Shown here piece after piece: positions 5,654 through 45,859 of a DNA stretch of 64,000 bases. Positions within the stretch are counted from its first letter, which is position 1; the number at the start of each line of letters is the position of its first letter. Where the stretch lies: NCBI GenBank assembly GCA_000153445.1, contig CH672398.1:9728-73727 (forward strand), written 5' to 3'. The notes beneath the pieces are model-generated. The model saw nothing but the letters and a program-made list of their open reading frames with translations, was not told the origin of the DNA and made no database searches. A program made the position numbers and the translations under genes. This stretch comes from a gamma proteobacterium HTCC2207 (GTDB lineage Bacteria; Pseudomonadota; Gammaproteobacteria; Pseudomonadales; Porticoccaceae).

Positions 5654-6067
5654 ATGAATGAAGAAACACGGCAGGGCGGTTGTCTCTGTGGTCAGGTGCG
5701 TTACAGAGTGCCAGCCAAACCAGTAGAAACCGTCGTCTGTCACTGCCGCAACTGCCAAAAGCAGGCCGGTTCCGCGTTCTCCGTGGTGGCGTTTTTTCCT
5801 CGGGATAGTTTGCAGTTAGAAGGCGAGTTACAGACCTTTGAAGATAAAGGCACCAGCGGCCAAACCGTCTTTCGGCGCTTCTGCGGCAACTGTGGTTCAC
5901 CGGTAATTACGGATACAGAGCATGCGCCGGAGATGGGGCTGATCTTTATTAAGGCCGGGACATTGGATGAGGTGGATGATTTGGTGCCGTCGGTGCATGT
6001 CTGGACCGAGCGCAAGCATTGCTGGCTGACCTTGGCAGAGGATCAGGTGCAGTTGGAGCGGGAGTAG
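5654..6067 (+). CDS. GFA family protein (CENP-V/GFA domain)
   Basis: This 137-aa zinc protein of the glutathione-dependent formaldehyde-activating (GFA) family carries GGCLCGQVRY near the N-terminus, then CHCRNCQKQAG and FCGNCGSPV, which together supply the cysteines for two zinc ions. The family's namesake condenses formaldehyde with glutathione, but most members have no proven reaction. ATG 5654 is preceded by GAGGAAC at ideal spacing, so the TTG at 5636 is not used. It follows the SDR closely. A role in handling an aldehyde released by demethylation or cleavage is speculation. Confidence 0.88.
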   Translation: MNEETRQGGCLCGQVRYRVPAKPVETVVCHCRNCQKQAGSAFSVVAFFPRDSLQLEGELQTFEDKGTSGQTVFRRFCGNCGSPVITDTEHAPEMGLIFIKAGTLDEVDDLVPSVHVWTERKHCWLTLAEDQVQLERE

Positions 6068-6127
6068 GGGTCGAATTTACTCCCTGTTAGTCAGGCCTAA
6101 ACCCTTAGATCCCAAACAAAAAAAACC

Positions 6128-6196
6128 GTCATCCTGAGCGTAGCCGAAGGATCTCAATCAGTCGGCAGGAGACCCTTCGACTACGCTCAGGGTGAC
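6128..6196. repeat. Palindromic repeat pair (TCATCCTGAGCG type)
   Basis: GTCATCCTGAGCGTAGCCGA and its near-exact inverse (23-bp arms, two mismatches) face each other across a spacer. Each arm has the small ATCCT/AGGAT stem and ends in GGATCTCA or the equivalent. The arm shares its frame TGTCATCC...GGATCTCA with the other repeats in the window, so it appears to be a subfamily of the same dispersed element. Confidence 0.85.
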
Positions 6197-6281
6197 AAGT
6201 AAGAGGCTAAACTGCGACATTCCAAGCCTAAACTGTCTTATCCCACTAGAGCCCCAGCCAGCCTTCTCGCCGAATGCGTAT

Positions 6282-6345
6282 CCTGTCATCTCGACAGACC
6301 CTACACCCTGTCATCTCGACAGAGCGAAGCGACGAGAGATCTCAG
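6282..6345 (+). repeat. Dispersed repeat, tandem unit plus A-type terminus
   Basis: Two units of CCTGTCATCTCGACAGA in tandem lead into AGCGAAGCGACGAGAGATCT. The second half matches the terminus found at 16668-16704, 17215-17245, 19078-19112 and 24119-24152. Non-coding. Confidence 0.8.
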
Positions 6346-6617
6346 AATCCCAAACGTATCTCGAAACAACCAGCCCGCCAAGGCCAACTCTTAAGTTTTC
6401 AAGCGCCAAGACCTTATGTCTCTTGTTAGCACTATGCTGACCCAGAAAAGTTAGAGTCAAACTAAATTCAATATACGCCTGATTTTATACCTATGATCTA
6501 GTAAGAAACCTGACTAAAGCACTTTAGATGACACATTAAAGATCACCCTAAAACCAAAATTCGAGGTCACGTCCAATTCATCTAGAGAGCCAGTAATAAC
6601 TCGATAAGGATAGCGAT

Positions 6618-7001
6618 ATGAACCTAACAATCTCCATACTTTTGATCACTGTCGGTTTAATTAATTTTTTGCCGGTAATAGGGATTATTTCAGCCGAAAA
6701 ATTATCTGCTGCCTATGCAGTAGAGTTGATTGGTAACGATATAGTTATTTTGATGCGCCACCGAGCATTACTATTCGGACTGATCGGTGGGTTTATGCTT
6801 TATTCCGTATGGAAACCTTCTTATCAATCCGTAGCTATGGTGATGGCGGCTATTTCTATGTTGGGTTTTTTGTTTTTTGTCGCAGCTGCCGATCATTACA
6901 ATGCATCTATAACCAAAATTGCCATTATCGATTTGATTGGCCTAGCAGGTCTCGCGATAGCAGCAGGTCTCAAATATCTCAGTCGAAATAGTCTCTTCTA
7001 A
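6618..7001 (+). CDS. Small multi-pass membrane protein, unknown function
   Basis: This 127-aa protein has four predicted membrane helices: about 4-24 (ISILLITVGLINFLPVIGII), 48-66, 72-90 and 102-121. The pattern LMRHRALLFGLIGG before helix two recurs in small gammaproteobacterial membrane proteins, some of which carry misleading enzyme names in databases. I see no catalytic motif. ATG 6618 has GATAAGGATAGCG upstream. It runs convergently into the MDR gene on the other strand, with a 4-bp overlap at the 3' ends. Confidence 0.7.
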   Translation: MNLTISILLITVGLINFLPVIGIISAEKLSAAYAVELIGNDIVILMRHRALLFGLIGGFMLYSVWKPSYQSVAMVMAAISMLGFLFFVAAADHYNASITKIAIIDLIGLAGLAIAAGLKYLSRNSLF

Positions 7002-8011
7002 ATATCCACCCTAACCAACGCCTTCCCCACAGTCCCCCCCGACATCAGCTCACAAAATGCCCGCGGCGTATTATCAAACCCCTCAGTAATATTCTCCAAT
7101 ACCTTAATATCCCCAGAGCGAATCCACCCCTCCAACTCCGCCATAGCCGCTGGCACCTCATCCTGATAAGTCGGCAATAAAAACCCCTGCATTGTCAGCT
7201 GTCGCGAGACCATCTCCCAGAGATTAGTAATCGGGTTAGGGTTATCCGTACGGTTGTAATCCGAGATCATCCCACAGGCCACAATGCGCCCATAAGTCTT
7301 CATCGTCTTAAGCATGGCATTGAGCACCGGCCCGCCGACATTATCAAAATAGATATCCACTCCCTCTGGGGCAATGGCCATCACCGCTTCAGTGACATCT
7401 TCCGTTTTATAGTTAACCGCGGCGTCAAAACCAAACTGTTCAACAATCAATTCGGCCTTATCATCACTGCCAACAATACCAATAACCTTACAGCCAGTCA
7501 GTCTGGCGATCTGCCCCGCCATGCTGCCGGTGGCGCCGGCTGCGGCACTCACAATGACTGTCTGCCCAGCTTGAATTAAACCCACTTCACGAAGGCCGAT
7601 ATAGGCCGTGGCACCTGCTCCACCCAGAGAACCAACATAATAGGAGAGGGGAATACCCGGCTCTGGCTTAAGTTTTTCTAACAGGATCGCTTCGCTGTGA
7701 CAGAGTGAATAGTCTTCCCACTGGTTGAGGGCGTAGACATATTCGCCCTCGGCGAAATCGGGATTTTTAGATTTAATTACCTGTCCAACCGAGGGGCCGC
7801 GGATCACGCCGCCTATGGGGATAGGTTCAAAATAGTTGGCTTTGCCATCGACCCAGCCGCGTATTGCCGGTTCCATTGAGAAGTACATATTGCGCAGTAG
7901 AAATTCTCCTTCGCTGGGCTCTGGCATGGGTCCTTCAGATAGGGCGAAGTTTTCCGGTTGAGCGGCGTCGGTAACATAGGAGGCGAGTACAACTTGGCGG
8001 TTGGTTGGCAT
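6998..8011 (-). CDS. NADP-dependent oxidoreductase, MDR family, copy 3
   Basis: This 337-aa third paralogue has the N-terminal YFSMEPAIRGWVDGKANYFEP, the loop AAAGATGSMAGQIAR and VDIYFDNVGGP. It is a zinc-free MDR of the PTGR/CurA type that should reduce an enoyl or enone with NADPH. It lies 2 bp after the Rieske ferredoxin gene and is the last member of the long minus-strand operon from 16385. That position places an enone-reduction step in the same pathway as the oxygenase. Confidence 0.87.
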   Translation of the reverse strand: MPTNRQVVLASYVTDAAQPENFALSEGPMPEPSEGEFLLRNMYFSMEPAIRGWVDGKANYFEPIPIGGVIRGPSVGQVIKSKNPDFAEGEYVYALNQWEDYSLCHSEAILLEKLKPEPGIPLSYYVGSLGGAGATAYIGLREVGLIQAGQTVIVSAAAGATGSMAGQIARLTGCKVIGIVGSDDKAELIVEQFGFDAAVNYKTEDVTEAVMAIAPEGVDIYFDNVGGPVLNAMLKTMKTYGRIVACGMISDYNRTDNPNPITNLWEMVSRQLTMQGFLLPTYQDEVPAAMAELEGWIRSGDIKVLENITEGFDNTPRAFCELMSGGTVGKALVRVDI

Positions 8012-16470: not shown

Positions 16471-16635
16471 TGTGGGTGGTTTTTATTATTTTGCTTTCTG
16501 TGCCTTTTGGTCGGGAAGTGGCATCCTGATGGGGCAGGTTGATTAGGGTTGTGGCTGCTGGTTTTTGAGATCTCTCACGTGCGTTCGAGATGACAGGCTG
16601 GGGGTTGAGATTACAGATTGCGGGCGTTTAAGGTC

Positions 16636-16704
16636 ACAGGTTGAGCGTTTGGGGTGATATACAACAATGTCATCCCGACAGAGCGCAGCGACGAGGGATC
16701 TCAA
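16636..16704 (+). repeat. Left 69-bp inverted repeat of the GIY-YIG element
   Basis: From ACAGGTTGAGCGTTTGGGGT to GACGAGGGATCTCAA it is the exact reverse complement of 17105-17173 as read by eye. Its 3' half is the A-type terminus of the dispersed repeat family. Confidence 0.9.
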
Positions 16705-16823
16705 GGCTAGTTACTACTCCTTACTGAGCATACATTTCCCAGCCTGTCACCAAAACGTGAATCCATACAATCACGCGACTGAAGACAGCAATAGAATAAT
16801 CTTGATCTTATTAACAGCAGCGA

Positions 16824-17108
16824 ATGATGGAAAAACAATACGCGGCTTATATTCTGACAAATAGAAGTAACAAGGTTATGTATGTGGGTGTGACCAGTAA
16901 TTTGGAGAGGCGCTTAGCACAGCATAAAGATAAGTCCGTATCTGGATTTGCTGCTAAATACCGTGTCGATAGGCTGGTTTATTATGAATTGACCAATGAT
17001 GTTTTGTCGGCGATTGCTAGAGAGAAAGAAGTTAAGAAGTGGCGCAGAGAAAAGAAGAACAGGCTGGTGGAGAGTATAAATCCGCAATGGATTGAGCTGG
17101 AAATTTGA
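16824..17108 (+). CDS. GIY-YIG endonuclease superfamily protein (UPF0213-like)
   Basis: This 94-aa protein is a minimal GIY-YIG domain. AAYILTNRSNKVMYVGVTSN holds the paired motif (YIL...YVG), with the conserved Arg after SNLERRL. KYRVDRLVYYELTN and the catalytic Glu region AIAREKEVKKWRREKK follow, and the C-terminus INPQWIEL is the family's usual end. GIY-YIG domains cut DNA in homing enzymes, repair nucleases and some transposons; the small stand-alone group has no settled role. The gene lies inside inverted repeats and its TGA overlaps the right repeat. Two ATG codons (16824, 16827) are adjacent. No good ribosome-binding site is visible. Confidence 0.9.
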   Translation: MMEKQYAAYILTNRSNKVMYVGVTSNLERRLAQHKDKSVSGFAAKYRVDRLVYYELTNDVLSAIAREKEVKKWRREKKNRLVESINPQWIELEI

Positions 17109-17173
17109 GATCCCTCGTCGCTGCGCTCTGTCGGGATGACATTGTTGTATATCACCCCAAACGCTCAACCTGT
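17105..17173 (-). repeat. Right 69-bp inverted repeat of the GIY-YIG element
   Basis: Reverse complement of 16636-16704, starting TTGAGATCCCTCGTCGCTGC. The first bases supply the stop codon of the GIY-YIG gene. It is followed by the B-type end (17171-17200). Confidence 0.9.
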
Positions 17174-17207
17174 CATCTCGAACGCATGTGAGAGATCTCG
17201 TTACCCA

Positions 17208-17300
17208 GCCGGAGATCCCTCGTCGCTTCGCTCTGTCGGGATGACATAAAAGAGCTTCAGCGGGATGGCATAAAAGAGCTCTGTTTGGATGACATGTTCT
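17208..17300. repeat. Further dispersed repeat with 23-25-bp tandem tail
   Basis: CGGAGATCCCTCGTCGCTTC and the rest of the A-type terminus are followed by three imperfect tandem units of about 23-25 bp (CGGGATGACATAAAAGAGCT, CGGGATGGCATAAAAGAGCT, TTGGATGACAT). It directly follows the GIY-YIG element and lies just beyond the ferredoxin gene on the other strand. Confidence 0.75.
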
Positions 17301-19077: not shown

Positions 19078-19275
19078 TGAGATCCTTCGTCGCTTCGCTC
19101 TGTCGGGATGACAGTGGGAGCTGTAATTGCGAACCGCTAGGTTATCGCTCGAATCACTCTACTGTAATCTCGAACCATCCCGCTGTCGCTCGAACCATCC
19201 CGATGTCGCTCGAACCATCCCGATGTCGCTCGAACCTCCCTTCTGTCATCTCGAACGCATGTGAGAGATCTCAAC
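19078..19275 (+). repeat. Non-coding repeat element with A- and B-type ends and 20-bp tandem units
   Basis: It starts with the A end (TGAGATCCTTCGTCGCTTCG...GGGATGACA) and finishes with the B end (CTGTCATCTCGAACGCATGT...GAGATCTCA). Between them lie about seven units of 20-21 bp built on CTGTNATCTCGAACCATCCC; three at 19175-19234 are nearly identical. The two ends are the same as those of the GIY-YIG element, so this looks like a gene-less derivative. Confidence 0.8.
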
Positions 19276-24078: not shown

Positions 24079-24118
24079 GGGTTGTTGCGGTTGTTGAGTT
24101 TGGGGGTGGGCTGGGAGT

Positions 24119-24215
24119 TTGAGGTCCCTCGTCGCTGCGCTCTGTCGGGATGAGGGTGCATTGTTTTGGTTTAGCAGCATGATTCTGTTATTTCGACCGA
24201 AGGGAGAAATCTCAG
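24119..24215 (+). repeat. Dispersed repeat element, short form
   Basis: An A-type end (TTGAGGTCCCTCGTCGCTGC...GGGATGA) and a divergent B-type end (CTGTTATTTCGACCGAAGGG...AAATCTCA) enclose only about 35 bp. It lies between the convergent MFS and PGPGW-like genes. Confidence 0.75.
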
Positions 24216-44824: not shown

Positions 44825-45859
44825 ATGAAACGTCCAGCCAAGAAAGCAGTATCTAAATCAAAAGCGAAAGCAAAATCACCAGTTTCACCTGTAGTAGCTG
44901 CAGCTAAACTTGTCGATTCCGTTAAAAAGCAAATCGTAGCTCATGAGAAAAAACATGCTGCTGTTGTGGTTAAAGTTAATAAAGCTAAAGCAAAAATTGC
45001 CGCCAAGGCGACCCCTGCTGCTAAGACTGGATTGGCTACAGCTCGCACGCAAGCTTCCGCCAGCCGTAAAGTTGCAGCTGCACTGCGCGACGGTTTGCGC
45101 TCTGCGAAGGTTGAACTTAAAGCGACTCAGTTAAAGCATAAAGTTGCAGCTGCTGAAACTGCAGCCAAAGCGTCTGTGTTGAAGGCAGAAGCGCGATTGC
45201 AGGCAGCTCAGGATGCTGATCTTGCTGCAGCAATGAAACGATTCGAAAAGCGTTGGTTAAAGGCTCGTGCTAAAGCAACGTCGAAAAAAATGAAGTTAGC
45301 TGAAAAGAAAGCAGCGCTTAAATTACAGGCAGCTGAGAAAGCTGTGGCAGCCAAACTTAAAGCTGCGGTTAAAAAAGCTGCAGACAAAAATCCAGCTGCT
45401 AAAAAAGCGATAGCTAAGACAGTTGTAGCGAAGAAAGTTGTTGCTAAGAAGCCAGTAGCTAAAAAAGCGACGGCTAAGAAAGTTGTCGCTAAGAAGCCAG
45501 TAGCTAAAAAAGCGGCAGCGAAGAAAATTGTAGCCAAGAAGCCAGCGGTGAAAAAAGCGACAGCTAAGAAAGTTGTCGCTAAGAAGCCTGCGGCTAAAAA
45601 AGCGACAGCGAAGAAAGTTGTCGCTAAGAAGCCTGCGGCTAAAAAAGCGACAGCTAAGAAAGTTGTAGCCAAGAAGCCAGCGGCTAAGAAAGCAACGGCC
45701 AAGAAAGTTGTCGCTAAGAAGCCAGTGGCAAAAAAAGCGCCGGCTAAGAAAGTTGTAGCCAAGAAGCCAGCGGCTAAAAAAGCCACTGTTAAGAAAGCAG
45801 TTGCCAAGAAGCCAGCGGTTAAGAAAGTCGCAGCACCAGCACCAGTCGTTGAAAAGTAG
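44825..45859 (+). CDS. Ala/Lys-rich histone H1-like protein (AlgP-like)
   Basis: This 344-aa highly basic protein has an N-terminal helical part (about 1-200) rich in Ala, Lys and Gln ([22 protein letters not shown]) and a C-terminal part of nine 15-residue repeats (about 202-336) with consensus [15 protein letters not shown], ending [10 protein letters not shown]. The pattern is that of AlgP/AlgR3 of Pseudomonas and bacterial H1-like proteins, which bind DNA through KPAA-type repeats. A role in nucleoid structure or regulation is expected; the target is unknown. GTGAGGAACGC precedes ATG 44825. A terminator follows. Confidence 0.85.
45428..45832 (+). repeat. 45-bp tandem repeats in the histone-like gene
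   Basis: Nine in-frame units of 45 bp encode [15 protein letters not shown]. Units four to six are identical in protein sequence and nearly so in DNA, which points to recent expansion or ongoing homogenisation. Copy number may vary between strains. Confidence 0.9.

Follow-up and report, generated by a model that had tools for sequence, protein, structure and literature searches.

The DNA analysed here, called the window, is a stretch of 64,000 nucleotides from the gammaproteobacterium HTCC2207 (contig CH672398.1, positions 9,728 to 73,727), and the system in question is a small GIY-YIG nuclease gene with the repetitive extragenic palindromic (REP) sequences around it. The gene (16824-17108, forward strand) encodes 94 amino acids and was recognised from the list of open reading frames (ORFs), a Pfam match, conserved residues and a structure model; its product is proposed below as the enzyme of CGTC/TGTC-headed REPs. 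It was located between two arms, 16636-16704 on the forward strand and 17105-17173 on the reverse strand, which were exact reverse complements over 69 bp, and the stop codon (17106-17108) fell inside the right arm, so both points of the preliminary description were confirmed. Ungapped extension of the arms reached 81 nt at 95% (16624-16704 and 17105-17185). Each arm consisted of a spacer and an inner REP, an imperfect hairpin of the form TGTC-ATCCC...GGGAT-CTC. The inner left REP (16668-16702, forward strand) and its inverted copy, the inner right REP (17107-17141, reverse strand, overlapping the stop codon), both pointed their unpaired TGTC "heads" outwards. Farther out, a second hairpin subtype, TGTC-ATCTC...GAGAT-CTC, was present at 16570-16595 (reverse strand) and 17171-17196 (forward strand) with the heads towards the gene, and the outer segments 16557-16606 and 17160-17209 were 84% complementary across 50 nt. 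A further REP of the inner subtype lay downstream at 17215-17246 (reverse strand) and formed a short gene-less heads-out pair with 17171-17196. The host site of the element was intergenic, between what we take to be the genes for pyruvate dehydrogenase E1 alpha and a 2Fe-2S ferredoxin. The preliminary description had regarded 635 bp with further inverted ends as the whole unit. The outer pair does exist, but the part conserved across phyla is the inner unit at ~16668-17141, namely a head-out REP, the gene and an inverted head-out REP, and the two outer hairpins (at 16570 and 17171) belong to adjacent REPs of the second subtype.

The nuclease matched the Pfam GIY-YIG family (PF01541) with an E-value of 1.6e-16. 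Residues Tyr9, Tyr20, Gly22, Arg30 and Asn86 were invariant in 21 sequences and Glu67 was nearly so; the catalytic roles of these residues are known from other GIY-YIG enzymes. The AlphaFold2 model had a mean predicted local distance difference test (pLDDT) score of 93, and its best match among solved structures was the UPF0213 protein 1zg2 (E 1e-4), followed by weaker matches, with E-values from 0.008 upwards, to Slx1, a nuclease of branched DNA. The predicted fold and the conserved residues place the protein in the GIY-YIG superfamily. With its Pfam match to GIY-YIG and a model resembling UPF0213 and Slx1, it is not an IS200/IS605-like HUH Y1 transposase, which is the enzyme of the REP-associated tyrosine transposase (RAYT) systems.

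The flanks of homologous genes were searched with a REP finder that required a [CT]GTC head and a perfect 5-bp stem starting with AT. This finder superseded an earlier one (stem of at least 6, mismatch allowed), which was too strict for hairpins with five contiguous pairs, and it misses stems not starting with AT and some decayed REPs. The first set comprised 57 loci from a protein-only search, with 51 usable genes including that of the window. In these 57 loci, 290 REPs were called against ~20 in dinucleotide shuffles, the YGTC head being required by the finder; this excess and the exactness of the 69-bp arms ruled out a chance inverted repeat. A heads-out REP pair within 150 bp flanked 25 of the 51 nuclease genes and none of the 257 other ORFs of the same loci, with median gaps between gene and REP of 33 and 32 bp. 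The enlarged set added loci from the genus and family and the best-scoring loci from 299 Pseudomonadota genomes (29 analysed), and 10 of the 97 loci were excluded because of a short match or a nearby contig end. Heads-out pairs were then found at 39 of 87 homologues from many phyla versus 0 of 308 other ORFs (Fisher 6e-30), and any REP within 150 bp at 79 of 87 versus 114 of 308. A test free of any REP definition, an inverted repeat score of at least 14 across the gene, gave 42 of 86 versus 3 of 298. The expectation that homologues would carry inverted repeats in their flanks, and that unrelated genes would not carry them equally often, was thus borne out.

The orientation of the REPs was also informative. 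Upstream of the nuclease gene, the nearest REP turned its head away from the gene in 54 of 67 cases, and downstream it did so in 54 of 72. Other ORFs showed the opposite: on 96 of 124 sides, by a count from the same table, the head of the nearest REP faced the ORF, which fits gene-less units also being heads-out pairs. One genome, G023, contained a short heads-out unit in tandem beside its nuclease gene. In our working picture, the nuclease gene belongs to the long units and is absent from the short ones. UPF0213 proteins (PDB 1zg2 and 1ywl), the closest solved relatives in sequence and fold and likewise single GIY-YIG domains of ~95 amino acids, provided a control. The 13 UPF0213-like loci (12 of them from the window's genus) contained one REP in all, ~1 kb from the gene. 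One of these proteins matched structure 1zg2 with an E-value of 1e-11, the other 12 were labelled by resemblance, and NCBIfam gave no name for three proteins of this sister subfamily. On the sequence evidence, the heads-out arrangement is specific to the GIY-YIG subfamily of the window.

These repeats belong to a described group. Di Nocera et al. 2013 (PMC3733652) describe CGTC-tagged REPs as hairpins with an unpaired CGTC, often TGTC or CCTC, whose stem of 8-9 bp begins with AT in almost every case; the loop measures 4-5 and the tail is in most cases CCA. Neisserial dRS3 and rickettsial RPE-4 and RPE-6 are among them, and according to the authors the group seems to lack a dedicated transposase. 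The repeats of the window have TGTC heads, and YGTC heads were far above shuffles in the flanks of homologues. The published form was found in the flanks of many homologues, for example as CGTC-ATTCCCGC-GAAG-GCGGGAAT-CCA at L120 and L125. At L125, (C/T)GTCATTCCCGCGAAGGCGGGAATCCA flanked the gene at distances of 28 and 27 bp, and the gene of L120, which had an in-frame stop, was flanked by it at 24 and 25 bp. Many Pseudomonadota loci had CCA tails, and the window, like many other loci, had CTC or CTT. The window repeats were intergenic and of high copy number, as CGTC-tagged REPs are. The two sets share the CGTC/TGTC head, a stem usually starting with AT, the occurrence of dimers and the intergenic location, with tails of CC(A) or CT, and the flanks of several nuclease genes match the published form. 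They differ in that several hairpins here have longer, imperfect arms (those of the window have five contiguous pairs starting with AT within such arms, and a CT tail) and in that a GIY-YIG gene lies between the REPs, whereas the published account has no associated transposase.

The abundance of REPs followed the gene and so, like the flank comparison, supported the interpretation given in the preliminary description. In a survey of 50 genomes of the window's genus, gene presence was defined as E <= 1e-10 and a REP-rich genome as one with at least 50 pattern matches. The gene was found in 8 of the 50 genomes, all with 57-120 matches, whereas only 2 of the 42 gene-less genomes had at least 50 matches (median 4). 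The relation was looser in the 299 Pseudomonadota genomes, 76 of which contained the nuclease family in up to five copies each: median REP density was 19.3/Mb in these 76 and 9.0/Mb in the 223 gene-less genomes (p 1e-14). Three genomes of the window's genus, G034, G032 and G021, had 78, 72 and 49 REP matches, and no member of the nuclease family was found in them; loss of the gene after REP spread, or incomplete assembly, possibly accounts for this. A divergent homologue as the source of REPs in such genomes was unsupported: six such members of the genus had a UPF0213-like protein with no REPs nearby, and G021 gave no match. The check for divergent homologues covered the matches other than a second weak one in G012 (L082).

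The REPs and the enzyme also varied together. The comparison was made for the 79 genes that had one or more REPs oriented as expected no farther than 200 bp away. Genes with more distant proteins also had more distant flanking REP arms (Mantel r=0.51), and the correlation persisted when permutations were confined to host groups (p=0.0002); these groups were defined manually, with the help of record titles and kinship labels. Within groups, r was 0.71 in the gammaproteobacteria (n=24) and 0.62 in the other Pseudomonadota (n=20).

Evidence of mobility came from G145 and G258, two genomes of one alphaproteobacterial-looking genus, in which the gene was present in eight copies of a ~510-bp unit; loci L163 and L169 were one site shared by the two genomes. 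The alignment of all eight copies started at TTCGTC, immediately outside the REP head; six of the eight retained its mirror image, GACGAA, at the right end, and the flanks of L162 and L164 were unrelated. The unit was thus dispersed in copies with defined ends, as expected of a transposable element. The ratio of nonsynonymous to synonymous substitution rates (dN/dS) was 0.04-0.16 in the 15 pairs of the six intact copies, a set that leaves out two copies with deletions in the gene, and the nuclease protein has therefore been maintained by purifying selection.

The comparison of relatives for empty and filled sites, which had been suggested earlier, revealed that occupancy differed between species at three sites, with junctions that were not all clean. 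At the L162 site, the unit was present in two of eight genomes (G145 and G141) and not in the other six, among which only parts of the flanks of G281 and G284 were matched. At the L164 site, it was present in three of eight genomes (G145, G160 and G211); G258 instead had a single 57-bp palindromic hairpin, TTCGTC...GACGAA, at the identical left junction, G361 had a hairpin of ~57 bp, and none was found in G141, G281 and G284, whose flanks matched less far. The site of the window element was filled in 2 of 14 genomes with the same gene order, G041 had one REP without the gene, and no REP was called in the other 11. The joined-head palindrome of G258 was considered as a general excision scar, a reading that we do not generalise: a scan for such palindromes with arms of 12 nt recovered the G258 one and found none in ~175 other loci, and with 9-nt arms only three in two loci were found. 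Several copies in G145 and G258 (L165-L168) were seen by eye beside or inside the arms of a larger palindromic intergenic repeat, as if it were a preferred target.

In the window's own genome of 2.63 Mb, the 635-bp sequence gave 138 partial matches and one full copy. A close homologue of the nuclease occurred once, and two weaker protein matches (E 2e-5 and 0.33) were other proteins. The REP pattern had 120 matches in this genome versus 1 for the reversed pattern. Called ORFs made up 91% of the window, and six of the nine pattern matches in the window were intergenic; the other three overlapped no ORF except a shadow ORF antisense to the nuclease gene. The gene-less copies that had been reported at ~6.3, 17.2, 19.1 and 24.1 kb were all present, the last in degenerate form, and one more was found at 6127-6152 (forward strand), followed by a degenerate inverted partner recognised by eye. 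The copy at 6284-6340 (forward strand) consisted of a REP (6309-6340) with a 5' half-REP (6284) on its head side. An intergenic REP at 19080-19112 (reverse strand) was accompanied by one of the second subtype at 19244-19269 (forward strand), and the degenerate REP was at 24107-24153 (reverse strand), a site where the relatives G023 and G041 had a REP pair. The 19.1-kb copy was considered as an exact insertion junction; it is not an empty site in the relatives because G023 and G041 hold one REP-like sequence there. Two other features of the window were observed. Positions 6065-7004, ~940 bp, contained REPs and a 127-aa ORF (6618-7001) reading like a small membrane protein; at this site, G023 and G039 had ~39 bp, and G041 and G002 had other sequence. 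Positions 44825-45859 encoded a Lys/Ala-rich protein of 344 amino acids that resembles histone H1-like proteins, with long tandem 45-nt repeats at ~45318-45857.

Truncated REPs were frequent beside full ones. These "half-REPs" were arranged in tandem, each with a head and a 5' arm followed by a short spacer, often with a period of 21-24 nt, and 27 of the 97 loci had them no more than 80 nt away from the full REP, on its head side (among them L004, L020, L062, L019, L132 and 6284-6340 of the window). The match length peaked at 14 nt (20 of 174), and the break was at a median of 0.40 of the hairpin length, slightly before the apex. Among half-REPs with a match of at least 9 nt, 69 of 91 were on the head side and 22 of 91 on the tail side. 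Cutting near the apex with subsequent repair would yield such products, and replication slippage is an alternative; we regard the half-REPs as a lead to the position of the cut.

Taken together, we consider it probable that the GIY-YIG protein is the dedicated enzyme of CGTC/TGTC REPs and acts on the folded hairpin. In this proposal, the window's unit is one member of a widespread family in which a CGTC/TGTC-headed REP and its inverted counterpart enclose a GIY-YIG gene of ~95 codons and turn their heads to the outside. The nuclease would be to CGTC-tagged REPs what the RAYT (TnpA-REP) is to GTAG-tagged REPs, with an unrelated fold. The gene-bearing unit would be the autonomous form, and short gene-less heads-out REP pairs would be non-autonomous forms resembling miniature inverted-repeat transposable elements (MITEs). 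While the DNA is being replicated, the REP may adopt a hairpin or cruciform shape. The nuclease, given the likeness of its model to UPF0213 and Slx1, would recognise the hairpin with its YGTC head and cut at its base or apex, and the REP unit would be copied or moved when the break is repaired or the ends are joined again. The comparisons directly show the arrangement and its restriction to one subfamily, the co-variation and co-abundance, the differences in occupancy between species, the ends of one multicopy element and the purifying selection; from these we infer recognition, cleavage, movement and the position of the cut.

Several observations weigh against this proposal. Forty-eight of the 87 genes had no strict heads-out pair and eight had no called REP within 150 bp. 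When 24 loci, mostly without a called pair, were re-examined, CGTC hairpins missed by the finder were recognised at L117, L133 and L139 and, outside the 87, at L174, L176, L178, L216, L219 and L220; no inverted repeat was found at L042 or, outside the 87, at L222 and L223, and the inverted repeats of L034, L118 and L177 were no better than shuffles. Neighbouring REPs within 200 bp of each other were heads-out in 79 cases, heads-in in 74 and in the same direction in 47, and pair counts alone cannot single out the heads-out unit because REP arrays alternate. In the Pseudomonadota, 16 of the 223 gene-less genomes were REP-dense (at least 25/Mb) and 14 of the 76 gene-bearing genomes had less than 12/Mb, exceptions that arise in part, we infer, because the pattern misses some REP types. 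Both co-abundance tests, in the genus and in the Pseudomonadota, were made without correction for shared ancestry, and co-variation was not significant in the Bacteroidota (n=9), the Firmicutes (n=7) and a mixed remainder (n=9). At the L162 site, the junction in G258 could not be aligned base by base; an apparent decayed REP was present at the window's site in the gene-less G002 and G039; and visual inspection of the sequence next to the aligned G145/G258 copies revealed no target-site duplication. Some element types make no target-site duplication.

Some individual loci were of separate interest. The genes of L216, L219 and L220, on Novosphingobium and Sphingobium plasmids, were flanked by inverted CGTC hairpins with stems starting with GCCCC or ACCCC. 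On plasmid p1 of Planktothrix agardhii (L224), TGTC REPs surrounded a homologue that had an MmeI-type restriction enzyme gene on one side and the DISARM gene drmA on the other. The homologue of Neisseria gonorrhoeae (L214) was located among closely packed dRS3-type CGTC REPs (11 within 3.3 kb), in a record of 2.17 Mb that is chromosome-sized yet filed as a plasmid. In Azospirillum lipoferum 4B, the nuclease gene and REPs were located between sufB and sufC.

The same data can be read in other ways. The nuclease could be a free-standing homing endonuclease that uses existing REPs as landing sites or shelters, so that the REPs would be its target and not its product. Free-standing GIY-YIG homing enzymes are known, nuclease genes often lay inside REP clusters, the window had extra REP material at 19.1 kb where relatives hold one REP-like sequence, and several copies in G145 and G258 adjoined the larger palindromic repeat. 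This reading is nevertheless unlikely, given that REP numbers followed the gene in the genus, that the REP subtype co-varied with the enzyme, that the multicopy element ended just outside the CGTC heads in unrelated flanks (L162 and L164), and that the heads pointed outwards on both sides, which is not the geometry of a gene inserted in one REP. A second reading, in which the gene is a passenger with an unrelated job of its own, caught between REPs mobilised by a RAYT/IS200-type or unknown enzyme, would explain the minority of homologues without a REP nearby and the REP-dense genomes without the gene. It is hard to reconcile with the recurrence of one arrangement in many phyla, at median gaps of 33 and 32 bp, while none of 308 other ORFs was so caught. 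A match to Y1_Tnp, the RAYT-type domain, was not found in 12 of 18 genomes examined, including that of the window, so a RAYT as mobiliser was rejected for the window's genome and 11 others of the 18; in the other six, 12 Y1_Tnp loci contained eight REPs in three loci and no heads-out pair around the gene. The published account likewise reports no RAYT or IS200-type gene flanked by CGTC units (PMC3733652). We regard the passenger role as very improbable.

The strong purifying selection on the protein and its relation in fold to Slx1 and UPF0213 would also suit a host repair nuclease that trims REPs serving as regulatory or terminator hairpins, in a neighbourhood inherited vertically. The position of the gene, however, differed between species, element-free sites exist, and the distribution was patchy (13 of 94 relatives and 76 of 299 Pseudomonadota genomes), so that a host function is barely credible.

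CGTC/TGTC-type REPs are abundant in many genomes of several phyla, and the question of their dedicated transposase is now directly testable with a specific, tiny and expressible candidate. If the proposed role of the nuclease is correct, bacterial REPs would have arisen independently through GIY-YIG as well as HUH chemistry, and a probable function could be assigned to many small genes whose annotation reads "GIY-YIG nuclease family protein" or "excinuclease ABC subunit C". Should the GIY-YIG enzyme alone prove to bring about movement, the unit would count as a transposable element of a new chemical class. A broader proposal, for which we see the case as evenly balanced, is that GIY-YIG/CGTC-TGTC units form a separate chemical class of bacterial transposable element with a structure-selective nuclease of ~95 amino acids as the sole protein, that they and their non-autonomous REPs produced the superfamily in many phyla, including dRS3, independently of HUH enzymes, and that the near-apex half-REPs are scars of the cut.

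A link between GIY-YIG enzymes and REPs was not found in the open literature searched, which consisted mostly of titles and abstracts, with bioRxiv and most subscription papers outside the search. In the available text, PMC12306157 and PMC6006769 had CGTC in their reference lists only and no GIY, PMC5082802 described Bradyrhizobium REPs with no GIY term, and PMC9465073 listed RayT and a GIY-YIG endonuclease as separate, unlinked clade-specific genes of Moraxella catarrhalis.

Among known systems, the UPF0213-like proteins resemble the nuclease in size and fold and differ in having no REP near the gene at any of the 13 loci examined. Free-standing GIY-YIG homing endonucleases and GIY-YIG-bearing Penelope-like retroelements are likewise nucleases tied to mobile DNA; unlike them, the window system has no intron or reverse transcriptase, and it has inverted REP flanks and many gene-less relatives in the same genome. 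The closest parallel is with the RAYTs (TnpA-REP), their GTAG REPs and the REPtrons that they form (PMC2817692, PMC8266576, PMC3733652). RAYTs are reported to be always flanked by two inverted REPs; the nuclease gene was so flanked in the window and, strictly, in the 39 homologues described above. The GIY-YIG unit is not a member of the RAYT-REP group because its enzyme is not an HUH/Y1 transposase and its heads are YGTC, with TGTC beside the window's gene, and not GTAG. The window's genome also has no RAYT-type match, and the GIY-YIG system is known here from sequence comparison. The analogy with RAYTs drawn in the preliminary description nevertheless holds for arrangement, co-variation and abundance: in both systems, a small nuclease gene lies between two inverted REPs, the REPs are hairpins with a conserved unpaired tetranucleotide head, the enzyme and the REPs co-vary, and REP abundance follows the gene.
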